46,082 nucleotides of DNA from Bacteroidaceae bacterium. GTDB lineage: Bacteria > Bacteroidota > Bacteroidia > Bacteroidales > Bacteroidaceae. The stretch covers positions 1-46,082 of the forward strand of contig JAFWAX010000006.1 in NCBI GenBank assembly GCA_017507385.1, read 5' to 3'. Position numbers and translations under genes: made by a program. The notes beneath the pieces are model-generated. The model was not told the DNA's origin, ran no database searches, and saw only the letters and a list, made by a program, of their open reading frames with translations. Shown one piece after another: positions 1 to 29,809 of this stretch; the stretch's first letter is position 1, and each line of letters starts with the position of its first letter.

Positions 1-702
1 GACACACAAGCGCCACACCTTACCTTCCGCACGTCTCAGCATTTCTTCAGGAGAGCCCTTGAAAGAAATCTCTCCCTTGTTCAGCAGTGCCATATCCACA
101 CATGAACTGGAAATATCACCCACGATGTGAGTTGACAGGATAATGGTGATGTCGTTGCCGCTCACTTGAGTCAAGAGGTTACGGAAACGGATACGCTCTT
201 CGGGGTCAAGACCTGTAGTAGGTTCGTCCACGATAATGACTTTAGGCTCATGAATCAACGCCTGTGCGATGCCCAGTCTTCGCTTCATACCTCCCGACAG
301 CTTTGACGCATATCGTTCGCGCACTTCATAGAGACCGACTTGCTCGAGCATATCGGCTACCGCCTGCTTGCGCTTACGGCTGTCGTCCATGCCAGAAAGA
401 CGGGCTGCATAATCCAAGTATTCTATCACTTTGTATTTAGCAAAGAAACGGAAATCCTGAGGCAGATATCCAAGTATACGCCTCACTTCACGACGTTCTT
501 TCAGCAAATTATACCCATACATTTCCACCTCTCCGCTGGATGGCTCCATCAAAGCCACCAATATACGCATCAACGTGGATTTACCTGCGCCATTGGGACC
601 CAACAAGCCAAACATGCCTGAAGGGATTTCCAAATTGATGTCCTTCAATGCGTGATAGCCGTTGGGATAAACCTTGTTCAGGTTCTTAATTTTTATAGAC
701 AT
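1..702 (-). CDS. ABC transporter ATP-binding protein (C-terminus missing)
   Basis: ATPase subunit of an ABC exporter. It energises transport from the cytoplasmic face of the inner membrane. The 234 codons in the window show the full nucleotide-binding core: Walker A GPNGAGKST (about residues 34-42), the signature LSGGMKRR, Walker B VIIVDEPTTGLDP and the H-loop LSTH. The ATG at 702 starts MSIKIKNLNKVYPNG, a normal N-terminus for the family. The frame is open to base 1, so the C-terminal part lies outside. The fold and length resemble single-domain exporters of the CcmA/GldA type in Bacteroidetes, but the substrate cannot be told without the permease, which should lie further left. A strong promoter lies at 752-782. 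Confidence 0.93.
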   Translation of the reverse strand, partial: MSIKIKNLNKVYPNGYHALKDINLEIPSGMFGLLGPNGAGKSTLMRILVALMEPSSGEVEMYGYNLLKERREVRRILGYLPQDFRFFAKYKVIEYLDYAARLSGMDDSRKRKQAVADMLEQVGLYEVRERYASKLSGGMKRRLGIAQALIHEPKVIIVDEPTTGLDPEERIRFRNLLTQVSGNDITIILSTHIVGDISSSCVDMALLNKGEISFKGSPEEMLRRAEGKVWRLCV

Positions 703-751
703 AGCTAGCTAACTTTTATTGTCGACTATAATAAAAATTGTGTTTGCGATA

Positions 752-782
752 CAAATTTAATAAACTTTTACATTGTAACAAA
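752..782 (-). promoter_or_regulatory. Bacteroidetes-type promoter of the ABC ATPase gene
   Basis: On the minus strand, TTTG (779-782), 19 bases, then TAAATTTG (752-759). This matches the -33/-7 pattern of the primary sigma factor of Bacteroidetes. It lies about 50 bases upstream of the ATG at 702. Confidence 0.7.
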
Positions 783-893
783 GCTTTGTATAGAATAGCG
801 CATGAAAAATAACAATATTTCACATTTTGTACACATTTTTTCTGATAGCAACAGCTAAGAGATAGATTTCAACGCATTTCCCCTTTAACGACG

Positions 894-969
894 CACCGTG
901 CGCATAATATTTAAAACACCGTGCACGAAATATTTCGCAGGCGGTGTTTTAAATATTATGCGCACGGTG
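894..969 (-). repeat. 76-bp nested palindrome, copy 1
   Basis: The outer 28-base arms (894-921 and 942-969) are perfect inverted repeats beginning CACCGTGCGCATAATATTT. Between them is an inner hairpin centred on CGAAATATTTCG. Copies 2 and 3 are at 9985-10060 and 16492-16567. Just outside the palindrome, at 970-982, lies a conserved flank that reads GTTCCTACGTGTTCACC on the minus strand; the same flank precedes copies 2 and 3 on the plus strand. The element therefore has a direction, and this copy is reversed. The 327-base gap 703-1029 holds this repeat and the promoter at 752-782; nothing else was seen. Confidence 0.9.
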
Positions 970-1029
970 AACACGTAGGAACAAGCATGAACCTGTCACA
1001 ACACATTTATGACGAAACATGAACAGCTT

Positions 1030-1713
1030 TTAGGAATAGAGAAAATATGCGCCGCCATCGCTGAAACAATACTTTCTCAAAAGCTCTTGCAAATGACGTG
1101 CATTAGCCTCCACCCTCTCGCGGCTGCCGTCGTAGCCGTTGATGAGAACCACAAGATGGGTTGAATCAAGATTCAGCTTTGTCCGTTCATGGTCACTTGT
1201 AGGTGTTCCCACACCACCTTCTGCATCACGATAAACCGGAAGTCCTTCAATATTGATGAATCCCCGCCCAATACCCTCATAAGGCTCTCCTTGGCGCCCA
1301 ATGCCGAGCGTGAGCGTGTCGCCAACAAACTTGGAGGCATCGAATCCTCCAATACTATAGCCATGCGCCATCGAAGCCAGATTTATCAAATCAACCAGCG
1401 TATTGACTTTATACAGTTCCTTCCCTTGCATCACACGGCGCAACAACGCTTCGGCTGCCGGCCGATAGCGCGAAGGGTCTTTTCCGCAAAGACGGTAAAT
1501 GCTCCGAGTGGCAGAGATGGGAGTGATTTCTTTAAGAGTTTCCGTGGTGAACTGCCGACAGAAGTCCTTACTGAAAGACTCTATCTCCTCCCACAGCGCT
1601 GGCGAATAAAGGCTGTTACGCACGGTCGCTTCAAGACATGCCCCGACAAACAGAGGGCAAACCTCTTTAATTTCCTGTGATACAATAATTTTCATAAATA
1701 CGCTTTTCTGCAT
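1030..1713 (-). CDS. B3/4 domain protein (tRNA synthetase beta-subunit-like editing domain)
   Basis: Stand-alone protein of 227 residues resembling the B3/B4 domain of the phenylalanyl-tRNA synthetase beta chain, the domain that checks misacylated tRNA. Family features visible: the stretch TPISATRSIYRLCGKDPSRYRPAAEALLRR (given here only as a landmark near residues 64-93) and the glycine-rich segment GYSIGGFDAS. Such free-standing proteins are common in Bacteroidetes; whether they edit tRNA is not established. Residue 7 is a second possible start (MKIIVS). It begins 7 bases after the tamL stop, so it is probably the last gene of the mdh-tamB-tamL run. No signal peptide is seen. Confidence 0.8.
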   Translation of the reverse strand: MQKSVFMKIIVSQEIKEVCPLFVGACLEATVRNSLYSPALWEEIESFSKDFCRQFTTETLKEITPISATRSIYRLCGKDPSRYRPAAEALLRRVMQGKELYKVNTLVDLINLASMAHGYSIGGFDASKFVGDTLTLGIGRQGEPYEGIGRGFINIEGLPVYRDAEGGVGTPTSDHERTKLNLDSTHLVVLINGYDGSRERVEANARHLQELLRKYCFSDGGAYFLYS

Positions 1714-1720
1714 TCCTCTT

Positions 1721-4081
1721 TTAGAATGGATAACCTACAGCGAAATGGAAGCCAAGCCCATCACTGAACTTGCGAATATTGTAATACCCCGACTTTCCTG
1801 TATCGTAAGGAGCATGAATACCTATACCAAGGTCGAGACGCAAAATGAGGAAATCAAGGTCATAACGAACACCCAATCCTGTGCCCAGCGCCATATCTTT
1901 CAGGAGCCTGTTGAGCTTGAACTGTCCACCAGGATGGGCATCATCCTTACGCATGAGCCACACATTGCCTGCATCGATGAAGAAAGCTCCCTGAAGGGCA
2001 TTGACAATGGGGAAACGGTATTCGGCATTAAGTTCAAACTTCAGGTCGCCAGCCTGGTCAAGATAGGTTCCTCTTCCCTCGCGGTCCAAATAGCTACCTG
2101 GACCTATACTGCGCACAGCAAATGCACGGATGCTATTGGCACCACCCACATAGAAAAGTTCGCTATAGGGAGCATAGCTGGAATTTCCATACGTCCAGAT
2201 TGCGCCCAATTGTACACGTGTAGCAATGGTGCTTTTATCTGCAACACGGAACAGGTTCTTCAGCGTGAACGTAAACTTGAGGAACTGCGAATAAGGAGTA
2301 CCTAACAGTTTTTTATCTTTCTTATGATAGTCTATACCCAGGACGGAATTGACTGTATTGAGCAAATTTCCTGATTCCTTGACAGTTCCCTCAAAGTACA
2401 TGGAATGTGCCAAACGAGTTTTCCATGTATTATCATAAATGATGGAATACTGCATAGCAGGGATGAACTGGTCGCGCAACGACACATAAAGGGCAGAATT
2501 GTTTGCGACGATAGAATCAAAACGAGCCGTGGTTTGCTGCATCTTGTTGTAGGAAATGGCAAGGGGAGTCAACTCATGACTCCATGAGCGACTGGTCTGA
2601 AAGCCGTATTTCGCTTCAGCAATGAAAGACATGAGCCTATAGTAGTTAGCACGATTGAGCTGATTGATGTTAAGTCGATAGGTCGTAGTTGCCGGATACC
2701 TGAAGAATTGCTTATTGAGCCCAGGAAAGGCAATCCACGGATAAGACAGCGACAAGTCAAGTCCAATCTCATAAGAATCAATGCGTTTGTTCTCGCCAAA
2801 CTGCTTTTGGGTCTGCCACTCATAACTACCTTTCAGTCCCACAGAAAGGGTCTCGCCATGACGAAACGCATTTCGCTTAGAAAGAATCAGTCCAAGACTC
2901 GGACCTACCTGCGAATTGGACTTCTGCGTGATGTTGAAATCCAGCTCCGCATCAACAAGCTGATCCATCGTCAGTTCCAACCGAACGTCAAGCGTATCGT
3001 TCGCCAAAGTCGTGTCTCGAGGCGTAAAGGTAAATTTCATGCCAGAGAAAATGTTCATACTATGCAAGTTCGCAATAGTCTTATCCACATTAGACTGATT
3101 GAACAAACGGCGTTTCCAAAACTTGAAGTTCTTAAAAAGCACACGAGGCGCTACTGGCATACGATCGCCCTGATAAACAATCTTCAAGTCATTCAGCATC
3201 AATGAGTCTGTGTACTGGTTTACTGTACGCTTCCGATTCTCAGCAACCTGCTGTTCTGTATTTGCTTGACGACGATTTGTACGCACACGAGACTGACGAA
3301 TGTATGCGCTCACATTTCCGAAGTAATACTGCTGCTTGGCTTTCTGCGGCATATTGATATCGGGAAGTACACACAGAGTAACCCGATAAGGAGAATTGGT
3401 AGAATCAGCCAAATATGTAACATAGTCAGGACGATAGTAATAGAAGCCGTTGTCACGGAACGCATTAACAATACGTGTCTTTTCACTCGTCAGGTCAAGC
3501 GTGGAAAATTGCCCTCCCTTACGAACATAAGCCTCATCAGCCGCAGCACGCAAGATACTATCCTCTATAACAGGGAAACGATACTGTATGCTGTCATAGA
3601 GATAAGGTTGATCAAGCTTCACACGATAAGCAATCTTCTGTTGCTTCGGATTCTTCTGATTGACAAGTTCATAATCCACTTTCCCCCGGAAATAGCCATA
3701 ATTCTGCAAAAGGTTTGTCGCAACTTTAGCCCTCATGTCGGGAGAAACGTGAGAAATCGTGACTGGCGGTGTGGAAAACGAGTCAAACAGCCACTTGTTG
3801 AACCCCTTGCGGGATTTATTCACATAAGCATTGTAGGTCCACAAGCCAACTTGGAACGGACTTCGCAAAGAAGAACTTCCCATAAATGCGCCATTAGGCT
3901 GATAGGCAAGAGCAGCCTCAACTTCGAGCAAAGCATTTTCTTCTGCCAACGTCCCTATTCGGTCTTCAACCTCAATTTCCTTGATGCCCGTGTAAAGCAT
4001 CTCACCCTCTGGAAGTTGAGAAGTCGTTGAGCATGCAACAAGCAGCATCAATATAAATATGTGTAAGAATGCCTTTTTCAT
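1721..4081 (-). CDS. tamL: TamL: lipoprotein BamA/TamA-family outer-membrane translocase subunit
   Basis: Outer-membrane beta-barrel of the BamA/TamA (Omp85) family that works with TamB in placing proteins in the outer membrane. The N-terminus MKKAFLHIFILMLLVACSTT is a lipoprotein signal with a lipobox ending in Cys, the hallmark of the Bacteroidetes TamA homologue. POTRA-like repeats follow, and the C-terminal half is barrel, with the family landmarks YVGGANSIRAFAVRSIGPGS and FELNAEYRFP and a terminal aromatic residue (FAVGYPF). The frame opens at 4105 but that start overlaps tamB; the ATG at 4081 is preferred because it directly yields the lipoprotein signal, is preceded by AGAAGG, and lies 7 bases after the tamB stop. 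The two genes are probably co-translated. Confidence 0.88.
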   Translation of the reverse strand: MKKAFLHIFILMLLVACSTTSQLPEGEMLYTGIKEIEVEDRIGTLAEENALLEVEAALAYQPNGAFMGSSSLRSPFQVGLWTYNAYVNKSRKGFNKWLFDSFSTPPVTISHVSPDMRAKVATNLLQNYGYFRGKVDYELVNQKNPKQQKIAYRVKLDQPYLYDSIQYRFPVIEDSILRAAADEAYVRKGGQFSTLDLTSEKTRIVNAFRDNGFYYYRPDYVTYLADSTNSPYRVTLCVLPDINMPQKAKQQYYFGNVSAYIRQSRVRTNRRQANTEQQVAENRKRTVNQYTDSLMLNDLKIVYQGDRMPVAPRVLFKNFKFWKRRLFNQSNVDKTIANLHSMNIFSGMKFTFTPRDTTLANDTLDVRLELTMDQLVDAELDFNITQKSNSQVGPSLGLILSKRNAFRHGETLSVGLKGSYEWQTQKQFGENKRIDSYEIGLDLSLSYPWIAFPGLNKQFFRYPATTTYRLNINQLNRANYYRLMSFIAEAKYGFQTSRSWSHELTPLAISYNKMQQTTARFDSIVANNSALYVSLRDQFIPAMQYSIIYDNTWKTRLAHSMYFEGTVKESGNLLNTVNSVLGIDYHKKDKKLLGTPYSQFLKFTFTLKNLFRVADKSTIATRVQLGAIWTYGNSSYAPYSELFYVGGANSIRAFAVRSIGPGSYLDREGRGTYLDQAGDLKFELNAEYRFPIVNALQGAFFIDAGNVWLMRKDDAHPGGQFKLNRLLKDMALGTGLGVRYDLDFLILRLDLGIGIHAPYDTGKSGYYNIRKFSDGLGFHFAVGYPF

Positions 4082-4088
4082 CGCCCTT

Positions 4089-7000
4089 CTATTTTGTTTC
4101 ATCATCTTTTTTCCGCCAAATAAAAAGATCTGACAACTTATCTACCTTCTTACGTAGAAGTACACCAGCTCCATTCTTATCCAACTCACCCTCAATCAAA
4201 TTAGAATAGTCTTTTTCATGGAAGAGCCGAATATACTGCGTCCCTCCATGATCAAGCCGCCATTCCAGAGACACATCATCGATGTAAGCGCCTGACTCGT
4301 TCTGTTCAGTGTTGCCATCAGCACTCACTTTGCCGCCTATCACAACATTCAGGCGATCAGAGAAGAATCGGCGAGAGAACTTGAAGGAGTAGTCAGTACG
4401 GCTGGTACCATCATCACGAGTTGTCTGTTCCATTCCCACATTGACATCCACCATAGTCGAAAAAGCACGTCCCGCAATGTTGTTTATCTCGTTTTGCAAA
4501 AAGTTATTGAGTGCATTCCCAGCAGTAAAGCCCTTGCTGTTTGAACCAGAAAGATACATGCCTGTAGCAAGCATCGCCACAGCAAGCTTATTCTTCTCCT
4601 CAGCAGAGCAGGCCGCCAACTCATTCTGAACAGCTTGGTCTTCAGGAGCTTCTATCGTAAACATCAACCCCATATTATCCAACGAATTGGTTATTTTCAG
4701 TCCTGTATCAAAAGCCACACTGCGACTTGAGCCATCACTCTGTCCTACAGCCGCACGCACTCGTTCTGTTGCCGCCACATTCAGCACAGGGTTAGTTGGA
4801 TTACCTGTAAATTCGATATAGGAGCCATTATGGATTGTGAATGTCTTGAGCGGGATTATCGGCAACGTATATTTCATCTCGCCCTCATTGATGGTATATC
4901 GTCCCTGCAAATTGATAACACCTTCAGGTGTATAAAGCATTGTGACAGAGCCACCTCCTTGCACATTGATATAGCTTTGTTTATCAGCAGAGAACTCGCA
5001 ATTAAACTTTGCGCCATCCTCGATGCTCAACGACATATTCATGTCTATACCCATAAAGGTTTTCTTGAGCATCTCATCACGAGGTGGTGGAGGAGCGCTG
5101 AAATCCACAAAAGTCACAATGTCCTCCAGACGGTCGCCCTGATACAGGGGTGTTTCCGTCATAATATAAGTGATATTAGTTGTAGGCAACACTCTAACCA
5201 ATCCACGCACTGTCAGATCGCTGGTTGAACCAATGACACGAGCAAAAAAATCTCCGTACATGTCACCAAACAGCACCTTATTGCTACTACGCTGAGATTC
5301 TACAATCTTAAAGTTAGAACCTCTGAGCGACAAAGACAAGAAAAGCTCTTCAAAATCAGAGAAATCCACATAGCCATTCAAAGCAAGCGGATTCTCATCT
5401 GCACCATAAAATTTAAAGTTATCAAACTCCACTCGGCTGTTAGTAAATGCAATCGTATCATTCGCCAAAGTAAAGTCAAGGCTGTAAGGATCGGAAAGCA
5501 CATGCATATTGCGAGGCATCAATGCCCCATTGAACAAGAGGGCATCCATTGGACCCTTTACATCCATATTACCAGCCAATACACCTTTGAATCCTACCAA
5601 TTGGTCAGGAATGAAGGGGTTGAGCATATCCACTGGTACATCTTGCAACAACATGCTTGCATCAAGTTCACCTTCATCATCAGCATCATATATTCCTTCC
5701 AAGAAAACAATATCATTGCCATTGTAAGCCAAATTAGCATCTATCACATGAACCGTCTCACTCTGAGGAGCATAAGTAAATTTCGAATCAAAATCTCCCA
5801 CATTCTGACCTTCATATACAAAGCTATTAGCATCAAGAGAACCTTCCACCAGGAAATTTTCTTCTTGGTCAATGTAATATGCGTCCAAATTCAGCATACC
5901 TCCCATCGCTGGAAGGTTCGGAACGGGTACAATAGTCAGCAGTTCTCTCAAATTCAAGTTGTCAATCACAAGATTGGCTATTTGTCTTCCCCACTCATTC
6001 TCATCAGCATATACCGACATATAGCAACTATCCGTCAAGCTCTTCAGCCGCACATCTGCCTGAAGCGGCCTCTGAGGCCGAAGGATTATATAATTGTCGT
6101 CATTCAAGCCAAACTCTCGGAATGCAAATACTGGCTTTTGCGGATACAAACTGAAATTGACACAGCTATCAGCAGCATCGGCCTTTACTCCAAAGTCTAT
6201 TCCCTTACGGTTTTTCTTGTCGAAATAGGTTAGATGCGCATCCGCTTTATCGGCCATCAAAAACCCTTCAAGATAGGCACGGAATGCTGGAAGCTGGGGC
6301 TGTTCATGACACTGCACACCTACACGATAATCCAACTGTGTCGTATCTTGCATAATCGTGAAGAAAGCCGTGTCAACCATGACATCATCCATCACTAAAG
6401 CATATACATGCCCATTACTCATTATTCCGTTATCTGACGTTACGTTTACATCTGTCAAAAACTCACGGAATCTGATGCCATACACATTCAAAAGGTCTGC
6501 TAAAGGGTTTTCATAGCCAGAAACAGCATGAAGCGACACATCAGGCAAATAAGTCTTCAATACATCTAAATTTACATTGCGGTCCTTAAACTGTTGACCA
6601 GCCACTTCGCTCAACTCTTCCAGTTTTGGCAACAACTGAAACACATTATTAGGCGTAAAGAAATCCAGAGACAAATCTCCTGTCTTGAATGTCACAGCAG
6701 TCGTATCCTCCTGAGCCACAGCATACAAATCTATATTTTCAGCACGCACACTATCTTTACGAACCTGCAAAGACAATACATCAATATGAGAGTCCACACT
6801 AAAATGTTCATCCCAGTCATAAGAGAACATGACCGCACCTTGAGAGCTTGCCTGCATCCGCTCTTCACTAAAGCCCATACTTTGAATATCCACTAACGGA
6901 ACATCAATGTCCAGAGAACCATCTATAAGATGTTTCTGCAATTCCGTATCAAGCTTTAATTGAGCTTGCAGCTGCGAATTATCACACAACACATTGGCCA

Positions 7001-8585
7001 GCAGTTTCCGTCCCCTCAGTGCTACATCCGCTTGAATATTGTTCAAATCAATCTTCCCAAAATGAGAATCCGAAAGACTGGCAACAGCCTGCAACACAGT
7101 ATGAGGTGAAAAGAAATCCAGCCCTTCACCCTGTACAGAAACCTCACCAGAGAAAACGGCGGTATCTTCCAACACCACATAGTGATTGAGCATCAGACTG
7201 TCAAAAGCCATCTTAGCTGCATACGTTTCTGTAGCCATGGCAAAACTACCTTCAACGTCCACCGCAGCATCGTGCACATCGCGGACACCAACGTTTGCCT
7301 GCAAAGACATATCGCCTGACACATCAAACAATTCAGCTTCACCCTCCAGCGTTGCCAGCTCAGGCACATCCAGATAAAGCCGCTCTACATGGACAGCCTT
7401 CAGGTTTCCTTCGGCCTTCATCTGCAGCACAGATGGGAGAGCTGGCAAACGCTCTGACATCATTGTACAAACATCGCGAGCACCCTCTCCGCCCATACGT
7501 GTGAAGTAAATCATGTCTTCCTTGCCAATCTGTCCTTCGCCCAGGAAGGAGAATGTGCCTGGCGACACTTCGTCAAACGCATTCATATCCATGCGGTAAG
7601 CAAATACCAGACGACTGTCGCTCGTCGTCACCGTAAACTTCGGCAAAGACAATGCCATCGAATCCATCTCCACCCTTCCATGAGCATCAGCAATCACAAG
7701 TCCCGTATGCTCACAGGCCGAGAATTTCGTCAGCATCAACTCCATTTCCTGAGTACCCTTATATACAAAAGAGTCCATCGTCAGACTGACGTCTTCAAAC
7801 AGCAAATGATTCGGATCCAGCTGTTCAGGCAAATTGGGCATATTCAGCAAGTCATAACCTATGCGAGCGTCCGAAACCTCCAGCTTATCCACCCGATAGA
7901 GTTCCTTACTCAAGTCCAGAAAAGCATTGGCATGAGCTGTTCCAATATCAGCCATCACACATGCGCTATCTGCCTGCGGAGCCAACATCACAAAAGCCTT
8001 TACGCGCTGAAGTTCAACATCATCCACCCGTATCCTCCAGTCCACAGTTTCTGTCGTTGTCGTATCCTCCGCCACAGAATCGGCTAATACCACCATCAAA
8101 TCGGCATCGCGTAACAGCGCCTTGTTTACCACAGCAAGTCCGTTCTTCAAATCCGTACTGTGGGAATCAAGACCCAGCTCTGCTACAGAACCTTTGATTA
8201 CAGCAGCCTCAACCAAGTCCTTCGTATTCAGCTTCACATCATAGAGATGGACATCATCCACCTCTGCTTCTCCATGGAATAGCGGCAACGCCCTCACACT
8301 CACATTCAGCAACCTTGCATCCAGCACCGTGTCCTCGTCCTGAACAGCAAGCACTCCTCCAACCTCTAAATCAAGCGGGAATGCCAAACGAACCCTTTCC
8401 ACCGTCACATCCATCTCCATTTCCTCGCTCAGAATCTCAGCAGTCTTATCAACAGCAAACTTCTGAATTGGAGGAAAATAAATCAACAGCAAAAGTAATG
8501 CAAACAACAAAAATGGAGTTAGCGTAATCCCCAAGAGGACACGCCAACTCCATCCTAAGAGCGTATACTTTCCGTACTTCTTCAT
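4089..8585 (-). CDS. tamB: TamB: translocation and assembly module inner-membrane protein
   Basis: Very long (1498 residues) protein anchored in the inner membrane, spanning the periplasm as a beta-rich groove and ending in the TamB C-terminal (DUF490) domain. Visible features: one N-terminal membrane segment (about residues 13-37), a long repetitive beta-strand region typical of the AsmA/TamB class of bridge-like proteins, and C-terminal landmarks such as GGGSVTMLYTPEGVINLQGR, FTGNPTNPVLNVAATE and QNELAACSAEEKNKLAVAML (residues about 1270-1390). It partners with TamL, encoded immediately downstream. Related proteins move proteins or lipids to the outer membrane; which of these applies here is not shown. 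The stop is TAG, so TAG is used as a stop in this genome. It follows mdh after 36 bases. Confidence 0.92.
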   Translation of the reverse strand: MKKYGKYTLLGWSWRVLLGITLTPFLLFALLLLLIYFPPIQKFAVDKTAEILSEEMEMDVTVERVRLAFPLDLEVGGVLAVQDEDTVLDARLLNVSVRALPLFHGEAEVDDVHLYDVKLNTKDLVEAAVIKGSVAELGLDSHSTDLKNGLAVVNKALLRDADLMVVLADSVAEDTTTTETVDWRIRVDDVELQRVKAFVMLAPQADSACVMADIGTAHANAFLDLSKELYRVDKLEVSDARIGYDLLNMPNLPEQLDPNHLLFEDVSLTMDSFVYKGTQEMELMLTKFSACEHTGLVIADAHGRVEMDSMALSLPKFTVTTSDSRLVFAYRMDMNAFDEVSPGTFSFLGEGQIGKEDMIYFTRMGGEGARDVCTMMSERLPALPSVLQMKAEGNLKAVHVERLYLDVPELATLEGEAELFDVSGDMSLQANVGVRDVHDAAVDVEGSFAMATETYAAKMAFDSLMLNHYVVLEDTAVFSGEVSVQGEGLDFFSPHTVLQAVASLSDSHFGKIDLNNIQADVALRGRKLLANVLCDNSQLQAQLKLDTELQKHLIDGSLDIDVPLVDIQSMGFSEERMQASSQGAVMFSYDWDEHFSVDSHIDVLSLQVRKDSVRAENIDLYAVAQEDTTAVTFKTGDLSLDFFTPNNVFQLLPKLEELSEVAGQQFKDRNVNLDVLKTYLPDVSLHAVSGYENPLADLLNVYGIRFREFLTDVNVTSDNGIMSNGHVYALVMDDVMVDTAFFTIMQDTTQLDYRVGVQCHEQPQLPAFRAYLEGFLMADKADAHLTYFDKKNRKGIDFGVKADAADSCVNFSLYPQKPVFAFREFGLNDDNYIILRPQRPLQADVRLKSLTDSCYMSVYADENEWGRQIANLVIDNLNLRELLTIVPVPNLPAMGGMLNLDAYYIDQEENFLVEGSLDANSFVYEGQNVGDFDSKFTYAPQSETVHVIDANLAYNGNDIVFLEGIYDADDEGELDASMLLQDVPVDMLNPFIPDQLVGFKGVLAGNMDVKGPMDALLFNGALMPRNMHVLSDPYSLDFTLANDTIAFTNSRVEFDNFKFYGADENPLALNGYVDFSDFEELFLSLSLRGSNFKIVESQRSSNKVLFGDMYGDFFARVIGSTSDLTVRGLVRVLPTTNITYIMTETPLYQGDRLEDIVTFVDFSAPPPPRDEMLKKTFMGIDMNMSLSIEDGAKFNCEFSADKQSYINVQGGGSVTMLYTPEGVINLQGRYTINEGEMKYTLPIIPLKTFTIHNGSYIEFTGNPTNPVLNVAATERVRAAVGQSDGSSRSVAFDTGLKITNSLDNMGLMFTIEAPEDQAVQNELAACSAEEKNKLAVAMLATGMYLSGSNSKGFTAGNALNNFLQNEINNIAGRAFSTMVDVNVGMEQTTRDDGTSRTDYSFKFSRRFFSDRLNVVIGGKVSADGNTEQNESGAYIDDVSLEWRLDHGGTQYIRLFHEKDYSNLIEGELDKNGAGVLLRKKVDKLSDLFIWRKKDDETK

Positions 8586-8621
8586 ATAGAGAAAGTAAAA
8601 AGGGAAAGTGACAAGTGAAAT

Positions 8622-9620
8622 TTACAAATTTGGATTAATCTTATTCCACTCTGATACAGCAGGAATGATGTTCAACTCAACCAATTCATCACGCATCTTG
8701 CAGAGATGTGCGTATGAAGCGTCAAGCTTAGCCATTTCTTCTGGAGTACCTACTGGCATCTTATATGTGCAGCCATTAGTATCAAGAGTGGTATCCATAG
8801 CCATCATGATGTGGTCGTACTTTTCGTTTGAAACGTAAGTACCTGCAGACCAGCGGAACTTCTCGCCGCCCATCACTGAGCGAATCATCTCAACAGAGCA
8901 GTATGCAGGGCTCTGCCATGAAGAACGTCCACGCAACTCGATAATCTTTGCACCACCCTGAGTCACATCCTTCTTCATCTGTTCCCATTCTGCTTCTGGG
9001 AATTCAGGAGTTCCTATGATATCGTAGAGAGGCTTGCCTGCTACCTTTACAGCAGAACCGAACACTGCCATCTGCTCGCCATGACCACCGTAAGTAGCAC
9101 AGCCTGTCACCTTATACTGCTTCACGCCAAACTTTTTAGCGATAGCAGACTGGAGACGAGTTGAGTCAAGCGCAGCCAAAGTAGTTACCTGACCAGGCTT
9201 CAAACCTGAGTAAAGCAAAGTAACAAGACCTGTCAAGTCTGCTGGGTTAAAAATAACAGTAACGTGCTTTACATCAGGGCAATAAGCCTTAATGTTCTTG
9301 CCCAGTTCCTCTGCAATCTTGCAGTTGCCAGCCAAAAGGTCTTCACGAGTCATGCCTGCCTTACGAGGCGCGCCACCTGAAGAAATGATATACTTTGCAT
9401 CCTTGAATGCCTCAGCCACGTCTGTTGTAGCAGTAAGGTTCACACCGTCATAACCGCAGTGGAACATTTCTTCCATCACACCCTCCATGCCAGGAGCGTA
9501 AACGTCATAGAGACAAACATTAGGAGTAAGCTTCATGGTCAATGCAAGCTGAACCATAGTAGAGCCGATAGCACCACCAGCACCTACAATCACAAGTTTT
9601 TCGTCTGTTAAGAAAGCCAT
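8622..9620 (-). CDS. mdh: Malate dehydrogenase
   Basis: NAD-dependent oxidoreductase of the lactate/malate dehydrogenase superfamily, cytoplasmic, interconverting malate and oxaloacetate; in fermentative Bacteroidales it serves the reductive branch toward succinate. Visible: nucleotide-binding loop GAGGAIGS (residues about 13-20), SGGAPRKAGMTREDLL with the substrate-binding arginines, FNPADLTG holding the aspartate of the catalytic pair, LDSTRL, and the catalytic histidine in GGHGEQM. The length, 332 residues, fits the family. A strong promoter lies 85 bases upstream. It is the first gene of a run mdh-tamB-tamL-B3/4, though the link with the outer-membrane genes may be positional only. Confidence 0.93.
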   Translation of the reverse strand: MAFLTDEKLVIVGAGGAIGSTMVQLALTMKLTPNVCLYDVYAPGMEGVMEEMFHCGYDGVNLTATTDVAEAFKDAKYIISSGGAPRKAGMTREDLLAGNCKIAEELGKNIKAYCPDVKHVTVIFNPADLTGLVTLLYSGLKPGQVTTLAALDSTRLQSAIAKKFGVKQYKVTGCATYGGHGEQMAVFGSAVKVAGKPLYDIIGTPEFPEAEWEQMKKDVTQGGAKIIELRGRSSWQSPAYCSVEMIRSVMGGEKFRWSAGTYVSNEKYDHIMMAMDTTLDTNGCTYKMPVGTPEEMAKLDASYAHLCKMRDELVELNIIPAVSEWNKINPNL

Positions 9621-9705
9621 AATTAAAAATGTTAAAATTTATGTTTTTTATCCTAAAATTATCGCACTCAAAGATTTCACATACATATCTGCCACACAAT
9701 AGTTG

Positions 9706-9736
9706 CAAATATACCCCTTTTCCCTTTGACACACAA
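9706..9736 (-). promoter_or_regulatory. Promoter of mdh
   Basis: Minus strand: TTG (9734-9736), 20 bases, TATATTTG (9706-9713), matching the Bacteroidetes -33/-7 pattern. It would give a leader of about 80 bases before the ATG at 9620. Bases 9740-9970 upstream hold no gene or signal that I can support. Confidence 0.7.
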
Positions 9737-9984
9737 CAATACCGCCATTTTTTTCACTAAAAATAACAAGCCACCCCTTAATACACATTGTTAAATGTGA
9801 TTTGTTGACAAGTCGGAAGAGCAGTTTGCGCCAAATCGCAAGATGTACAACATGAAGCGAGTCAAATGAAACAGAGCTCGACATAGTCAATTCACATTCT
9901 TGATTCGTCACACATTCTCCCCACTCCCTCATTCGCCAGCCACGAAAATTCTCTTCGCAGAACAGCTATCGTTCCCTACGTGCT

Positions 9985-10060
9985 CACCGCCTGCATAATA
10001 TTTAAAACACCGTGCTTGAAATATTTCGCAAGCGGTGTTTTAAATATTATGCAGGCGGTG
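9985..10060 (+). repeat. 76-bp nested palindrome, copy 2
   Basis: Same length and layout as the copy at 894. The outer 28-base arms are again perfectly complementary but begin CACCGCCTGCATAATATTT, so the three bases that differ from copy 1 are changed in both arms together. The inner part is TGCTTGAAATATTTCGCAAG. It is preceded at 9971-9984 by the conserved flank GTTCCCTACGTGCT. It lies between the divergent promoters of mdh and the carboxylesterase gene. Confidence 0.9.
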
Positions 10061-10229
10061 AAGATAAATGTACGCATATTTGTTGGGATGAATTTACTTA
10101 ATCTCACGTGAATCGACCACACTAAACCTTACTTCACCAAACTGACGTAATTTCCCGCTTTTATAGATAGGAAAAGAGAATAGTTTTTAACTTTGCCGAA
10201 AAAACACTGAAATTTCGCAAAGAATGTGT

Positions 10230-10237
10230 TATCTTTG
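10230..10237 (+). promoter_or_regulatory. -7 element of the carboxylesterase gene
   Basis: TATCTTTG, a full match to the Bacteroidetes -7 element, 35 bases before the chosen ATG. No good -33 element is seen at the expected distance. Its position inside the upstream end of the open frame (10224) argues for the ATG at 10272 as the true start. Confidence 0.55.
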
Positions 10238-10271
10238 CAAAAAGATAAACACCTATTATAAAAAAACATCA

Positions 10272-11834
10272 ATGACAAAATTAAGACTGATTATGGCAAT
10301 GGCAGTCCTATGGGGTGCCGTTGTGTGCATGGGACAGAAGTCCGATCCGATGGTGGTCAGCACAACATCCGGACTCGTGAAAGGGATTGACCAAGAAGGA
10401 ACAATGGCTTGGCTGGGCATTCCATACGCGAAAGTGGAGCGTTTCATGCCTCCTTTGCCTGTAGAGAAATGGCAAGGCGTGAGAGTGTGCGACCACTGGG
10501 GGCCACAAGCCATGCAACAAACCAACCGCGAGATGTCGGAAGCGGAAATGTCTGAAAAAAACTCATGCGTACTCAATGTGTGGAGCACTGACAAAAAAGG
10601 CAAGAAGCCTGTCATGGTGTGGCTGCACGGCGGAGGCTTTGACTCTGGCACTTCCGCATGGGATCCCGGCATGGCGTTGGCTAAGAAAGATGTCGTGGTT
10701 GTCAGCGTGAATCACCGCCTGAACATTCTCGGATTCTTAGACCTGTCCACTTGCGGAGAAGCTTACAGACAATCGGGAAATGTAGGCATGCTTGACGTTG
10801 TGGCGGCACTGGAATGGGTGCGTGACAACATCAAGAAGTTTGGCGGCGACCCCAAGAACGTGACCATCTTTGGCGAATCTGGCGGCGGTGGGAAAGTAGG
10901 CACTTTGCTCTGCATGCCATCAGCCAAGGGGCTTTTCCACAAGGCTATCATCATGAGCGGAACCATTCTCAACGTAAACACGAAAGCCATGACCGAGGAA
11001 CTGGGCGAGGCCGTGCTAAAGGAACTGGGCATAGAGAAGAAAGACGTGGATAAGATCAAGGATGTGCCTTACAAGGAGCTCTATGCAGCCGGACAGCGCG
11101 CAATGGCAGCCAGCATCGGCACACGTCGGCCTGGAACTCCGATGATGTGGGGATTTGGTCCGACGCCAGACGGAGAAGTACTGCTACAACAGCCTTTCCA
11201 ACCCGGATTTGCCGACATATCAGCGAAAGTACCCATCCTAATTGGCACAACATTTAACGAATTGCAACGTCTGGCATACGGACAGCCCATGACTCAGGAA
11301 GAGGCTCGGGCGCAACTGACACGCACATTTGGCGACGAAACCGAATCCTATATCAACGCATTTGCCGAAGCTTATCCAGACCATACGCCACAAGACCTTG
11401 TGAGCATCGACTGGCTGTTCCGCCCCAAGACCATCATCACGGCAGATGAGATTGGCGGAAAGCGCAAGGCGGACACCTATATGTATATGTTCACTTGGAA
11501 ATCTCCTCAGAATCAAGGTTCCGTGCATGGCGCAGAACTAAAATTCTGCTTCAACCGCCTGCATCACCAGCACAGCGACGTACCCAACCCTACAGAAAAG
11601 GACTTCCTGCTGGCAACCCTGATGAGTGATTCATGGGCTCAATTTGCCCACACTGGCAATCCGGACACAGAAGGGCTCCCCTATTGGCAGCCCTACACTG
11701 CAGAAAATGGAGAAATGATGATTTTCGACTATAACTGCCGAATCCTCCACAACCCCGACCGAAAGCTGGAAGAAATCATTAACAGGCATTGTTTCAAGCA
11801 GCTGGATGAATTCAGAAAGAAATCACAAAAATAA
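10272..11834 (+). CDS. Secreted type B carboxylesterase
   Basis: Alpha/beta-hydrolase of the carboxylesterase type B family, hydrolysing carboxylic esters, probably in the periplasm. The chosen start gives MTKLRLIMAMAVLWGAVVCMG, a plausible signal peptide. Visible: oxyanion loop HGGGF (residues 119-123), nucleophile elbow GESGGGG with Ser203 (GESAGG is usual, so the third position is Gly instead of Ala), a likely acidic residue in GTTFNE and the catalytic histidine in VHGAEL. 520 residues, normal for the family. It is transcribed alone, closed by a strong terminator. Members of this family in gut Bacteroidales are sometimes xylan or feruloyl esterases, but nothing here fixes the substrate. 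Confidence 0.88.
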   Translation: MTKLRLIMAMAVLWGAVVCMGQKSDPMVVSTTSGLVKGIDQEGTMAWLGIPYAKVERFMPPLPVEKWQGVRVCDHWGPQAMQQTNREMSEAEMSEKNSCVLNVWSTDKKGKKPVMVWLHGGGFDSGTSAWDPGMALAKKDVVVVSVNHRLNILGFLDLSTCGEAYRQSGNVGMLDVVAALEWVRDNIKKFGGDPKNVTIFGESGGGGKVGTLLCMPSAKGLFHKAIIMSGTILNVNTKAMTEELGEAVLKELGIEKKDVDKIKDVPYKELYAAGQRAMAASIGTRRPGTPMMWGFGPTPDGEVLLQQPFQPGFADISAKVPILIGTTFNELQRLAYGQPMTQEEARAQLTRTFGDETESYINAFAEAYPDHTPQDLVSIDWLFRPKTIITADEIGGKRKADTYMYMFTWKSPQNQGSVHGAELKFCFNRLHHQHSDVPNPTEKDFLLATLMSDSWAQFAHTGNPDTEGLPYWQPYTAENGEMMIFDYNCRILHNPDRKLEEIINRHCFKQLDEFRKKSQK

Positions 11835-11838
11835 AGGT

Positions 11839-11891
11839 AAAAAGCGAAAGTTACTTGCCATTCAAAGCAAACAACTTTCGCTTTTTATTTT
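11839..11891. terminator. Bidirectional terminator between carboxylesterase and nitrilase genes
   Basis: AAAAAGCGAAAGTT (11839-11852) pairs with AACTTTCGCTTTTT (11873-11886) around a 20-base loop. A run of T follows on the plus strand and a run of A precedes it, so it can serve both convergent genes. Confidence 0.8.
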
Positions 11892-11903
11892 TCCCTTCCA
11901 TTT

Positions 11904-12653
11904 TCAATCAGCATCTTTCAGCACAGGGAATTTCCGTCTGAATTCACGAAGTTTTGCCTGATCAAGCTCTACCGTAATCACAGACTCCTCACCTAACGGG
12001 CAAGCTGCCGCAGTATTTCCAAAAGGGTCAATGAACTGCGTTCCTCCACTGTAATGGCAAGTATCATCATCTCCTGTGCGATTGACTCCTGCCACATAGC
12101 ACTGATTTTCAATGGCACGAGCATGGAGCAGAGTGTTCCAGACGGCAAGACGTGATGTCGGCCATGAAGCCACATAGATGGCGCAATCGTAAGGAATCTT
12201 CTCATTGTTACGAGAAAAAACCGGGAAACGGAGGTCATAGCACACTTGCAGAAGGAAACGAACGCCACGGAATTCCACCACCTTACGCGCATCGCCAGGA
12301 ACATAATGCCGATGCTCGTCACCGTAAGTAAACAGATGGCGCTTGTCGTAGGCTGCCACATGTCCGTTAGGCTTAACAAAGTAGCAGCGATTGAAATAGC
12401 TGCCCCCTTCCTCCGTCGCCACACTTCCGCAGATAGCGGCATTCAGCTCTTGCGCCATCCGCTGCATCCAAGCAAGAGTGGAGTCATCGGCTTCCGCTAC
12501 CCCTTGCGGCTCAGCGGCAAAACCCGTCGAGAACATCTCTGGAAGCACATAAAGGTCGCTCTTATCAAGCTCCCGAAGCCAACCTTCTAATTTCTGCTGA
12601 TTGGCAGCGGGATTTCCCCACACAATGTCTGGTTGCAAAAGTGATATAGTCAT
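11904..12653 (-). CDS. Nitrilase-family amidase (omega-amidase-like)
   Basis: Cytoplasmic carbon-nitrogen hydrolase. The catalytic triad is visible: Glu39 in LPEMFSTGF, Lys104 in YDKRHLF and Cys138 in QVCYDLRFP. This pattern fits the YafV/Nit2 subgroup, which hydrolyses omega-amides such as alpha-ketoglutaramate left by glutamine transaminases; the exact substrate is inferred. The frame opens at 12680 inside the preceding gene; the ATG at 12653 gives MTISLLQPDIVWGNP, the normal N-terminus, and lies 5 bases after the upstream stop. The gene probably shares a transcript with the broken yfhO-like gene. Confidence 0.87.
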   Translation of the reverse strand: MTISLLQPDIVWGNPAANQQKLEGWLRELDKSDLYVLPEMFSTGFAAEPQGVAEADDSTLAWMQRMAQELNAAICGSVATEEGGSYFNRCYFVKPNGHVAAYDKRHLFTYGDEHRHYVPGDARKVVEFRGVRFLLQVCYDLRFPVFSRNNEKIPYDCAIYVASWPTSRLAVWNTLLHARAIENQCYVAGVNRTGDDDTCHYSGGTQFIDPFGNTAAACPLGEESVITVELDQAKLREFRRKFPVLKDAD

Positions 12654-12658
12654 AATTC

Positions 12659-15214
12659 TTATTTTCTCTTGATGCTCCAAACGATGGCAGCCACAATGAG
12701 CAGCGCAAGCACACCTAATGCCACATAAGCAATTGTTTCCGTTGTCTGAATACTTTGAGGCTTGAACTCGAACACGACCTCATGCTTTCCTGCTGGCACA
12801 TTGATAGCACGAAGCACGTAGTTGGCACGTCCCACCTCTACAGGCTGTCCATCAACAGCGGCTGTCCATCCCGGATAATATACTTCAGAGAAGACCACCA
12901 AGCCGCCTTGTTCGGAATCCACCTCATATTTTGCCTCATTAGCCTCGTAGGATGTAAGTTTTACAATACCAGAACCTTCTGCCTTCAAAAAGCCGAAGTC
13001 ATCCTTTGCCACCACCGCAGTAGTACGGAGATTCTCCTTGCCCAGAGCATCCAGTTCTTCATTCGCATTGGCTACCCACTTTATGTTGGTGACGAACCAG
13101 GCATTGCCCATTGCCGTAGCATTCTCAACAGGGAGTTTCACATTGCCTTTCTCGCCTGCTCCCAGGATAAACCAATGTGTGTTAAGCATATTGATGACAG
13201 GGAAGAGCGAATCCGTGTTGACTGCCGTCAGGTCATAGATGGGGTATGGCGAAAGTTGCTGCTGCATAGCTACCGTATCCATAGGAGCCATGCGAATTGC
13301 CGTATAGACCTTGCTCATTTCAGGAGCAATATGTGCTTCTATCAGTTCCTGATACCGACGCAGCTTAGCTGCATGATATCCACCTATAGAGCTATAGAAA
13401 GCACTCGTGTTGTTGTCATTGAAAGTAGATACTGTGAAATTCAGCACACGGTAGTCTCGTCCTGCACCACTTTTCTCAAGAATGTAAGTGTCTGCATCAG
13501 TCTTCTGAATACGTTCTACGCCACGTGGTGCAACAAACATGTCATCGTTGAGGTAGCGCTTGTTTACCTGCCACATGTCAACAAGACAAATAGCCAAGAG
13601 TATCACGCTCAAGATCGTTATTTTCTTCGGGTCGCCTGCACCCTTCTTGGCATACCACAGCAGAACAAACATGCCCAACAAAATAATGAAGATGCTACGC
13701 CAAGCATCAGCACTCACCATTGCTGCGCGCATATCTGAAATACTGCGGAGAATATTCTGCCCGAAAGCTGCATCGAAGTAGCCCGCTCCAACATATTGCT
13801 GCACAGCAGCTTTATCGTTGGCGTTCACAAGGTCATGGCCTAATCCTGGTGAAACCACATAAATCAGACAGATAACAACAGTGAAGATAGTCGCCACATA
13901 AATCGGTTTCTTCTCAGGTTTCTACACCCAAAGCTTCAATCCCCACAAAGCAATGAAAGGTACAACAAACTCCACGACCACAAGGATACTTGCCACTGTA
14001 CGGAACTTTGAGTACATAGGCACATAATCAATAAAGAAATCGGTGAACGGCATGAAGTTTCTTCCCCAACTCAACAGCAATGTCAGCACACCAGACACAA
14101 TAAGCGCCCACTTGATAGGATGCCTGTTAGGGATAACCATCAGACCCAGAACAAATAGCATGCAGACCAAAGCGCCCAGATAGACAGGTCCGCTGGTGCC
14201 CGGCTGGTCTCCCCAATACTGAGTGAACGCACCATAAATGCCAATCTGGCTCATTTGGGCGTCAGCCTTCTTCATCGCTGTCTTATTCATCGAAAGCGGC
14301 ATGCTTGCCCCGCCTTTCACATTCGGGATGAGGAAAGTCATAGACTCATCAATGCCATAGCTCCAAGCTGTGATGTAGCTGCGCTCCAATCCGCTATCCG
14401 TCTGGTCTTCAGACTTGCCAGGCTTCACCAATTCGCTCTTGCCGCGCATGGTGTCTTTGGAATATTCGTATGTATGGTAGAGATTGCTGGCATTCAGACA
14501 GACGGCAAGCACAGCTGCCACTGCAATGCCTGCTGTAGCCTTGCCAAAAGACAATAATTCTTTCTCCCGGATAGCCTGCACGAGATACGCCACGACCAGC
14601 AGCAGCTCAATGGTCAGGAAGTAATAAGACATCTGCACATGATTTGCCTGCACCTGCAATGTAGCAAAAATGGCTGTTACGATTGTTCCCAACAAGTATT
14701 TCTTCCTGTAACACAGCACCATACCCGCTATGGTAGGCGGAATATATGCCAATGCCATCACCTTCCAGATGTGTCCGGCAGCGATAATAATGAAAAAATA
14801 ACTGCTGAATGCCCACACCACAGCTCCCAGCGCTGCCATCCACTGACGGAAGTCAAATGCTCTTAGCAAGATGTAGAAACCCAACATCGATGCGAAAATG
14901 TACCATACATAGTCAGGAAACCACAGGTGATACGCTTTTTCCACAAATGCCATCGTCTTCACAGAATCGTAAGAAGGGGCTATCTGATAGGTTGGCATAC
15001 CACCAAACAAGCTTGTCACCCAACGCGGCGTTTCTCCATTGTGTGCATCACGGTACTGTTTGATTTCCACATTGATACCATCATTGGCACCGCTATCGTG
15101 CTGCTCCAAGCGGAAGCCCTTGCTCACTGGAGACATGAAATAAACAAACGCAATTGCCGCAAACAAAGCGATGCAATACACGTCTGGCAAAATCTTCTTG
15201 AAATTGAACTTCAT
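12659..15214 (-). pseudogene. YfhO-family membrane protein interrupted by an in-frame amber codon
   Basis: Polytopic membrane protein of the bacterial YfhO family (glycosyltransferase-like topology; relatives act in lipid-linked sugar transfer). Read as one frame it is about 850 residues, the usual length in Bacteroidales. A single TAG at 13922-13924 splits it: the first part ends LKLWV and the same frame continues KPEKKPIYVATIF. The second part has only a GTG (13897) as possible start. The first part (430 residues) holds membrane helices and GGMPTYQIAPSY; the second (412 residues) holds the periplasmic part, with EVYYPGWTAAVDG and a last helix before IKRK. There is no length change, so it is a point nonsense mutation, a sequencing error, or a readthrough site. 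Confidence 0.85.
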
Positions 15215-15243
15215 ATATTAAAGATGTGTTGATTTCGACGGTA

Positions 15244-15275
15244 CAAAGGTACGATTAAGTGAGAGAAAAACCAAA
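15244..15275 (-). promoter_or_regulatory. Promoter of the yfhO-like gene
   Basis: Minus strand: TTTG (15272-15275), 20 bases, TACCTTTG (15244-15251). This is a full match to the Bacteroidetes pattern, 30 bases before the ATG at 15214. The promoter looks intact although the gene is interrupted. Confidence 0.75.
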
Positions 15276-15318
15276 ATATTTTGAGTTTTTCCGAGTACGA
15301 GCACCCTAAAAGCAAGAC

Positions 15319-16119
15319 TTACACCAGCACAGATTCTCCACAACTGAAGGCAAAAAGTCGATTCCCCATCACACGATGGAGCACTTCAAAAGCCACATCG
15401 CCAGTGCAATGACCAGTATAGAACCGCACATGAGGATAGGCTGCCTTCAGCCTCATCGCCAAAGCCATCAGTTCGTCTTCCGACTCACATCCATCCAACA
15501 GATGGAATCCCCCCACCACTGTATGCACAGGCCACGGGCAAGCTTCAAGGATGTTTTCCAAGCCACAGTGTGCACATCCCGTGAAGAGCAAACCATCTAC
15601 ATAGAGTGCCTGTTCATGGCGGAAATCGTCAGGCGCAAGATTTCCATCCACATCCTGCACATAAAGCCGCTGATTTCCTTGCGGCTTGGGGCGACTTGAA
15701 GGAATGCGAGCAATCACTCGGAGTCCTTCTTCCAGTTCGCACGCATGGCCTCCCACATTTATTGTCCGTCCATCCAGTTCACTGGGCCAAGCTGGCGTAA
15801 TACTGTGCAGACACAAGCGCTTAGAGAAAAACGTTCCTGCCAAAGCCTCTGGCGAAACTATAACTTTTGCCCGCTGATTCTTTACCAGAAAATGCTGCAA
15901 TCCCCCAGCATGGTCAGCATGGCCATGAGAGACAAAGACATAGTCCACATTCCCAAGATCAACACCCAACTTTTCCGCATTACGGATAAAAATATCGCTT
16001 GCGCCTGTATCAAGCAGCACACGAAGCCGCTCCGTCTCCAGCAAGACAGAAAGCCCATGTTCCGTCTCCATACGAGGGTCATGCGCCCTATTGTCCGACA
16101 ATACAGTCCATTTCATCAT
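15319..16119 (-). CDS. Metallo-beta-lactamase-fold hydrolase
   Basis: Predicted metal-dependent hydrolase of 266 residues. The metal site SHGHADHAGG (residues about 64-73) is complete; further ligand candidates are in TGCAHCG, GGFHLL and TGHCTG. The arrangement, with FTGCAHCG and VVGGFHLL, matches the group annotated as dihydropterin-methyl-ribofuranosylaminobenzene-phosphate synthase-like (COG1237), which in most bacteria has no proven function. A second ATG follows the first at once, so the start could be 16116. No signal peptide. No clear promoter; TATCTTTA at 16251-16258 on the minus strand is a weak candidate. Bases 16120-16477 hold nothing else that I can support. Confidence 0.85.
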   Translation of the reverse strand: MMKWTVLSDNRAHDPRMETEHGLSVLLETERLRVLLDTGASDIFIRNAEKLGVDLGNVDYVFVSHGHADHAGGLQHFLVKNQRAKVIVSPEALAGTFFSKRLCLHSITPAWPSELDGRTINVGGHACELEEGLRVIARIPSSRPKPQGNQRLYVQDVDGNLAPDDFRHEQALYVDGLLFTGCAHCGLENILEACPWPVHTVVGGFHLLDGCESEDELMALAMRLKAAYPHVRFYTGHCTGDVAFEVLHRVMGNRLFAFSCGESVLV

Positions 16120-16491
16120 ACCATCATCTTTTTTTACATACAGTTCTCATTACGGCGTCACCGCTCCATCAATCTCGTCAATACAATAAAAGTCAACAAG
16201 ATAGCAAGAATCACCTTCTGCACCTTCCCTCATTTTATCGTTTTTCGATATAAAGATAGACAGAATACAAATACCCTGCAACAAACAGCATCGCCATTAA
16301 CATCTTTTAGCACTTGAAGCAGCATTCATGATAGACTGTGTTCAAACATCCATTTCTATTCCACAAAAATCTTAAACACATGAAAAAATGACCATCAAGA
16401 GTTCCGCCGACAAATGCGCTATTATGCACACAATGCTTAAAATAACGTGAGTTCAACCAATTCACATAAAGCATGCAGTTCCCTACATGTC

Positions 16492-16567
16492 CACCGTGGG
16501 CATAATATTTTAAACACCGCCTACGAAATATTTCAAACACGGTGCTTTAAATATTATGCAGACGGTG
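16492..16567 (+). repeat. 76-bp nested palindrome, copy 3 (decayed)
   Basis: Same length as copies 1 and 2 and the same flank before it (GTTCCCTACATGTC, 16478-16491). The outer arms begin CACCGTGGGCAT and end ATGCAGACGGTG, so they no longer match perfectly, and the inner arm is ACGAAATATTTCAAA. It lies about 150 bases upstream of gltX. Confidence 0.85.
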
Positions 16568-16695
16568 GAAGCTATAGAAGACTATAATGGAAGAAAAGCA
16601 CTCCGCAATTGTGTTTTTTACACACTTATTAAACCAATTTTACACTGTCGGGGAATATAGCAAGTCTTTTTTCACACACTTACTCAAAATTTTCG

Positions 16696-16703
16696 TATCT
16701 TTG
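16696..16703 (+). promoter_or_regulatory. -7 element of gltX
   Basis: TATCTTTG, a full match to the Bacteroidetes -7 element, 15 bases before the first ATG of gltX. The -33 side is only T-rich. It lies inside the upstream extension of the frame, which rules out starts before 16719. Confidence 0.55.
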
Positions 16704-16718
16704 TCACCTCAAAACAAA

Positions 16719-18287: not shown

Positions 18288-18300
18288 AAATTGCAGCATA

Positions 18301-19692: not shown

Positions 19693-19722
19693 CTACAACC
19701 ACTTGCAAAACTTTAATATCAA

Positions 19723-19764: not shown

Positions 19765-19796
19765 CATGTCGAATACAAATCGTTTCACATCGAATC

Positions 19797-29760: not shown

Positions 29761-29809
29761 AAGTAGCTGAATGTATCTTCTCGTAAATCGGTGTGCCCCA
29801 CAGCGACAT

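Follow-up and report, generated by a model that had tools for sequence, protein, structure and literature searches.

Palindromic arrays of a 23-bp unit in a Bacteroidaceae genome, one form of which lies within an IS982-type miniature element

Contig JAFWAX010000006.1 of a Bacteroidaceae bacterium (assembly GCA_017507385.1), analysed over its whole length of 46,082 nucleotides and hereafter called the window, carries three palindromes at 894-969, 9985-10060 and 16492-16567, in agreement with the positions and the length of exactly 76 bp given for each in an original prediction made from the letters of the contig alone. In this study we identified at least 76 distinct places of the same family in the genome, each copy being built of 3.3 tandem units that are 23 bp long and self-complementary, and recognised that the copies bearing terminal inverted repeats (TIRs) constitute a miniature inverted-repeat transposable element (MITE) of the IS982 type. 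We consider it reasonably probable that the family as a whole consists of non-autonomous dispersed arrays of the 23-bp unit, one form of which was spread within this MITE, together with a stand-alone form. The genome is a draft of 2.38 Mb in 84 contigs with 78% completeness, the window being its contig C41; it is designated G000, the comparison genomes carry other G numbers, and fetched loci carry L numbers.

The layout of a copy is CACCG-N5, 13 bp, CACCG-N5, GAAATATTTC, N5-CGGTG, 13 bp, N5-CGGTG or, in an equivalent view, four 10-bp boxes (forward, forward, reverse, reverse) with spacers of 13, 10 and 13 bp, which amounts to 3 x 23 + 7. Exactly 76 bp were found in 73 of the 76 copies, and a shorter form measuring 53 bp (2 x 23 + 7) was seen in several genomes, G062 and G032 included. 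The nested design originally proposed, with 28-base outer arms around a 30-base inner hairpin, holds in that the palindrome is real, but the inner hairpin shares its CACCG and CGGTG ends with the outer arms, giving a layout of 28 + 20 + 28; the outer arms pair perfectly in the first two window copies, whereas the third carries mismatches. Within the window the arm 20-mer gave six matches at up to 3 mismatches against none in 100 shuffles, and the DNA of copy 1 folds with -36 kcal/mol against -10.1 (sd 2.4) for shuffled sequences (z -10.9).

As a measure of the size of the family, a count with a covariance model, as the original prediction had suggested, was carried out using 52 source copies (47 from G000 and 5 from G035). 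RNAalifold applied to the 52-row alignment returned a 9-pair structure missing the long arms, and a hand-written structure was used instead. The model was run on 150 of 623 first-look candidates in G000, and all 150 scored at E <= 0.01; after matches on both strands were counted once, at least 76 distinct places remained, a lower bound, so that the family is not confined to the three copies of the window. At E <= 0.001 matches were present in 11 of the 45 genomes of the genus (G000 plus 10 of the other 44), namely G000 and G035, with diverged forms in G002, G003, G010, G011, G025, G032, G062, G064 and G065. BLAST over 61 genomes gave matches in G000 and G035 only, those in G035 being 76-86% identical over at least 55 bp. 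A pattern scan of a contig collection for CATAATATTTAAAACACCG hit three contigs, one of which, L114 from a Bacteroidales metagenome-assembled genome (MAG), has the same copy as G035; the other two, from Pelagibacteraceae and Alphaproteobacteria MAGs, were taken as chance matches. Among viral contigs the palindrome core gave no match and the exact TIR three. Over 393 genomes of the order, a 30-bp core pattern was found at four places in G000 and at one place in each of two other genomes, with three genomes hit by the reversed control, a weak negative because the pattern misses most known copies, the inner boxes being variable, and because the genus was represented there by G000 alone.

The larger unit was recognised from the flanks of 29 copies. 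Its ends are 18-bp TIRs, ACGTGAGTTCGACGAATT and the complement, for which G000 holds 95 matches at up to 3 mismatches against 2 for the reversed control. Complete MITEs measure 195-196 bp (L105, L107, L108, L109), with one of 172 bp (L106), and include no transposase gene. The same ends, at up to 2 mismatches, were present in 34 of the 45 genus genomes, and TIR pairs 1,039-1,051 bp apart bracket transposase frames in G062, G024 and G013. The proteins of G024 and G013 matched NF033520 (IS982) with 258-260 bits (cut-off 130) and PF13612 with 232-235 bits; IS982 genes above the cut-off were detected in 13 of the 45 genomes. The 7-mers flanking the 21 copies with both ends in register agreed with each other at 0.476, compared with 0.378 for 2,000 shuffles (p = 0.0025), and among duplication lengths from 2 to 12 only 6 besides 7 fell below 0.05 (p = 0.031). 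The parent-type element L099 is flanked by TAAGATA on each side. When the interior of the MITE was compared with other loci, the match was limited to the TIR and a few inner bases. The original suggestion of a mobile family like MITEs or repetitive extragenic palindromes (REPs) is thereby sustained in its MITE part for the TIR-bearing copies, given the IS982 ends, the 7-bp duplications and the high copy number, but not in its REP part.

Two further kinds of element share these ends. A second MITE of 214 bp has the same TIRs around another array of period 23 (GTACCCC type, GTACCCCTCGGGT), and its copies L104 (G000:C15:16050-16263) and L110 (G000:C83:61379-61592) have near-perfect 7-bp direct repeats outside. 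At L111 (G000:C25:21592-21614) and G000:C58:15122-15144 two TIRs are fused as a 23-bp palindrome, perhaps a minimal remnant of the transposon, and the outer 7-mers of L111, TATGTTA and TATGTTG, resemble a target duplication.

The MITE does not span the whole palindrome family. At a limit of 5 mismatches, both ends were found for 22 of the 76 copies, one end for 20 and none for 34; at 4 mismatches the numbers are 20, 20 and 36. The conserved flank GTTCCCTACGTG, originally described as lying on one side only, does lie on one side in the MITE-borne copies, but on both sides of the copies without TIRs the outward flanks pool to a degenerate inward motif, approximately YTCCCTACGTGCT, beside CACCG. 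Since this conservation disappears beyond 13 bp, the stand-alone unit is about 100 bp long.

The two arms of a copy match each other more closely than expected. The outer variable 5-mers are the same in both arms in 34 of 73 copies, against a shuffled mean of 11.4 and a maximum of 23, whereas the inner ones are the same in 3 of 73 against 6.8 expected; of these 73 copies, 49 have a CCT-type inner box opposite a TG-type box, and 2 have a pair of opposed CCT-type boxes. In the 52-row alignment, changes on both sides occupied 62 cells against 40.8 after shuffling (none of 500 shuffles as high). At the remaining arm positions, 18 changes are common to both arms (10.2 expected if independent), 149 affect one arm and 1 differs between the arms. 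No RNA signature accompanies this matching: on the transcribed strand of the outer arms of 32 copies in tandem gaps, the mismatches consist of 30 G-U, 28 A-C and 32 others. Given this, the symmetry is most likely kept by hairpin- or cruciform-templated correction of DNA (template switching) rather than by selection on RNA. In the G000 rows the palindrome centre retains a pair of unlike, opposed inner boxes; some copies show the two in the opposite order with respect to the flank, as would result from an inversion of the centre between the arms.

According to the explanation that we favour, the palindromes would be non-autonomous dispersed repeats, one array of which lies within a 196-bp MITE that has its 18-bp ends in common with insertion sequences of the IS982 family. 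The MITE form may have been spread to intergenic sites, with 7-bp target duplications, by an IS982 transposase supplied in trans, the copies without TIRs may represent a mobile stand-alone version of about 100 bp with YTCCCTACGTG-like ends, the arms would be re-matched within each copy by the templated correction described above, and copies would persist chiefly behind genes. Several observations weigh against this explanation. The 78%-complete draft holds no intact IS982 gene, a single match of 35.6 bits being found. No sign of target duplication emerged from 6,300 tests on 32 stand-alone copies, the z values lying between -3.14 and 3.10. The array of G000 at C32:3245 has a related array of G035 at the same place, so that some copies are inherited. 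In a tree of poor resolution, palindromes from the MITE are scattered among stand-alone ones, so that no single capture by the MITE emerges from it; label changes numbered 15 for MITE copies against 17.8 after shuffling (30 of 500 as low) and 18 for stand-alone copies against 24.0 (5 of 500). Compensatory selection could also explain the matching of the arms.

The features of the family within the window are the following.

894..969, minus strand: array copy 1 (76 bp), without a TIR in register; its conserved flank is on the right, with CTACGTG on the minus strand
970..982, minus strand: 13-bp conserved flank of copy 1
9971..9984, plus strand: conserved flank of copy 2 (GTTCCCTACGTG and 2 bases)
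9985..10060, plus strand: array copy 2 (76 bp), without a TIR in register; a match with 5 mismatches lies at 88 bp instead of the usual 72
16445..16462, plus strand: left TIR of the copy-3 MITE with 2 mismatches, the right TIR missing
16478..16489, plus strand: conserved flank of copy 3, with 1 mismatch to GTTCCCTACGTG
16492..16567, plus strand: array copy 3 (76 bp), located upstream of gltX

Copy 1 is located 60 bp behind the stop of the minus-strand gene 1030-1713, and copies 2 and 3 are both in divergent gaps. The homology of gltX starts at residue 51 of its frame, and the gltX region aligned in 14 relatives, in none of which the palindrome upstream aligned. Just upstream of gltX, at 16607-16703, lies another dispersed repeat, which matches four places of G034 as well as G009 and G066 at 74-81%, and part of which also matches G064. 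The window also holds a long AT-rich quasi-palindrome at 42585-42671, with 46-nt arms at 78%.

The position of copy 1, and that of the family as a whole, disagrees with the proposal that all copies lie upstream of genes and not behind them. Since gene calling followed a simple longest-frame rule, individual gap assignments may be in error. The 76 copies are distributed over 33 tandem, 23 convergent and 9 divergent gaps, a further 5 falling within called frames and 6 lying at the edge of a contig. When 76-mers were drawn at random from the intergenic DNA of the window and of 20 stretches from five congeners, 60% fell into tandem, 17% into convergent and 23% into divergent gaps; the family is thus enriched in convergent gaps (23 of 65 against about 11 expected; gap classes against random placement, p = 0.0002). 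Among the copies without TIRs, 36 in number, the neighbouring stop was within 63 bp in 20 of 39 cases and the neighbouring start in 4 of 30 (p = 0.002).

This bias, together with an inner hairpin that is flanked by AAAA and TTTT and could act as a two-way terminator, would also be accounted for if the arrays were 3'-end elements under selection, ending transcripts or protecting the 3' ends of mRNA, with different species swapping array sequences at the same operon end. Such swapping is suggested by the gap behind a GDSL-lipase gene (PF13472) and before a polysaccharide-export gene (PF02563), which was chosen because arrays were known there in G000, G032 and G064, and for which 20 stretches were fetched. 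Lag-23 arrays, which differ among several unrelated sequences and all begin no more than about 60 bp from the stop, were detected in 7 of the 18 species with this gene pair (G000, G035, G032, G068, G014, G010 and G021; in G068 and G014 a frame was called across the gap), against 0 of 17 for a control gap of equal length at a distance of two genes (median lengths 392 and 422 bp; Fisher p = 0.008; without the three lead-in species 5 of 15 against 0 of 14, p = 0.04). The array of G064 is under the detector limit, and that of G003 passed in another run only; the rest of the 20 stretches holds two more lag-23 arrays (G032, G014) and lag-21 or lag-22 arrays in G023, G026 and G065. Alignable gaps at this site measure 65-86 bp in five species without the array and 168-216 bp with it (369 bp in G021), but gap length alone is no marker of arrays, since gaps of 136-382 bp without a 23-bp array exist in G013, G024, G030, G033 and G036.

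We nevertheless regard selection as 3'-end elements as an unlikely explanation of the family. The near equality of G-U and A-C mismatches gives no sign of selection on RNA, and Rfam gave no match at the gathering score within the window, so that the structured regulatory element once considered receives no positive support. A terminator scan of window positions 1-19999 left the full hairpins uncalled, the inner CACCG..CGGTG hairpin followed by TTTT being noticed by reading. Nine of the 65 copies sit in divergent gaps, and in a check of 19 arrays, 3 belonging to this family and 16 mostly to other sequence families, only 1 was located in a convergent gap. The bias toward 3' ends is, moreover, also expected from purifying selection against insertions into promoters.

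Spacing of 23 bp is not restricted to the CACCG family. In nine elements of different sequence, hand-picked after the spacing had been seen by eye (four via the model, four via position and fold at one site, and one via the TIRs), the best self-match among lags 10-39 was 23 in all nine; the unit families include CACCG, CACCCTGCGC, GTACCCCTCGGGTACG, CCGATGTCCCCGACGTCGG, GTTACAAGTGTAAC, GTAACGCCGTTGCAT and GTGTGCCCCACA. Using a detector that combines lag matching with dyad symmetry within 60 bp, we examined 300 kb of loci from the genus that had been retrieved for other purposes and found 18 loose hits at lag 23 against at most 7 at other lags of 15-31, and under strict limits 5 at lag 23 against 4 at lag 22; in 400 kb from five congeners, of which four had been selected because they contain arrays, lag 23 received 11 strict hits and no other lag more than 4. 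Tandem arrays were also met elsewhere. Within the window, 29785-29855 is a second 23-bp dyad array, of the GTGTGCCCCACA type and in a convergent gap, the type being present also in G035 (L262:14616). Other genera of the family contain dyad arrays with a period of 22 bp (L291 and L301 of G371; L292, L313 and L312 of G432), for instance around GACCTAGGTC. In another family of the order, L282 (G054:C1:8231 and 9647) has two 23-bp tandem arrays 1.4 kb apart, both built from a single unit, CTCACAAGTTTGTCAGTTTTTAC.

From these data a broader proposal may be made for the genus, and perhaps for the family and for the BrickBuilt element described below, although we hold it to be tentative and rather doubtful: mobile or self-renewing elements would be defined by a ruler and not by sequence, consisting of about three self-complementary units spaced at 23 bp (22 bp in sister genera), with many unrelated unit sequences per genome, repeated settling at the same operon ends and at least two captures by IS982 MITEs, the spacing being set by some enzyme or replication process. 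Against such a class stand the 20 further species (393 kb), where lag 23 gave 2 strict hits compared with 3 at lag 21, and 7 loose hits, as many as at lags 21 and 22; the other genera of the family (500 kb), where lag 22 leads with 9 strict hits compared with 2 at lag 23; the result of Tandem Repeats Finder on 746 kb, with 28 arrays of period 23 and 26 of period 21; and a whole-unit dyad symmetry that is within chance for some unit families. Outside the genus, Tandem Repeats Finder gave 4 arrays of period 23 in 331 kb, and 231 kb from other families of the order yielded no strict hit at any lag. These uneven counts indicate that the density of arrays, and perhaps the ruler, varies among lineages.

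A spacing of two helical turns would also suit tandem protein-binding sites of the operator or iteron kind, scattered by duplication, and the 23-bp spacing fixed across unrelated units, as well as the lead of 22 bp in other genera, points in that direction. We find this quite improbable, because one genome holds several unrelated unit sequences and because the period is unremarkable in the 20 further species. Integron attC sites and a V(D)J-like heptamer were also considered but not retained.

The original prediction knew of no named family with this design. No sequence homologue was found, and in the literature searched we met no paper on 23-bp palindromic tandem repeats in Bacteroidales or on palindromic units in Bacteroidetes, but the same kind of design has been described for BrickBuilt of Porphyromonas gingivalis, to which the family appears akin by design and which is the closest named system. 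BrickBuilt consists of 23-nt tandem repeats without spacers inside a MITE with a leader and a tail; long stem-loops are predicted for it, and one strain carries 19 copies (Klein et al. 2015, PMC4596501). It differs in its unit, AGAYCATARTATCCTCTCRTRTG, in its TIRs, which are of the GAGACC type and called IS5-like in the paper as against ACGTGAGTTCGACGAATT here, and in the number of units, 1 to 22.8 as against 3.3 in nearly every copy here (PMC4596501). Self-symmetry of the published unit ranges from 0.61 to 0.78 according to its ambiguous letters (chance 0.29-0.006), so that a dyad design common to both is only suggested. In Table 2 of the same paper, the first 12 bases of the left TIR of MITE239, listed alongside MITE700 and ISPg3, are those of the TIR here (ACGTGAGTTCGA); the length of these elements is different, and ISPg3 is filed there under IS5, whereas the congener transposase here is IS982 (PMC4596501).

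With respect to its ends, the MITE resembles MITECca01 of Cardinium, which in the text available is a MITE of about 240 bp with the ends of an IS982-family insertion sequence and 169 mostly intergenic copies (PMC9769881). No tandem palindrome array is described in that text, and Cardinium keeps intact copies of the parental insertion sequence, unlike the present draft (PMC9769881).

REP elements, in the portion of the source at hand, are palindromes of 20-40 bp with a GTAG or CGTC tag next to the stem, GTAG being linked to a gene for a REP-associated tyrosine transposase (RAYT), and they too are dispersed between genes, often paired head to head (PMC3733652). The palindrome here is 76 bp long with no tag beside the stem, and a 23-bp period is not described for REPs in that portion (PMC3733652). 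Mobilisation of the palindromes as REP-like units by a tyrosine transposase of the Y1 type, as their small size, intergenic dispersal, stand-alone form without target duplication and a GTAG in the outward flank might suggest, is quite improbable, since this GTAG is 7 bp off the palindrome on its 3' side and does not adjoin the stem, and since the search for a transposase of this kind, which the original prediction had proposed, found no match to Y1_Tnp (PF01797) in the 78%-complete G000 or in G035, G062, G032, G010, G011 and G002, and no association with the palindrome over 45 genomes (above the cut-off in 3 of 11 palindrome genomes and 11 of 34 others).

The family ties together dispersed palindromes, minisatellites and MITEs in Bacteroidales, and with more than 70 natural replicates in one genome it offers material for asking how the symmetry of palindromes is maintained. 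Should complete genomes confirm the 23-bp spacing across unrelated sequences, a hitherto unrecognised fixed-ruler mechanism would await discovery, and BrickBuilt would take its place in a larger class.
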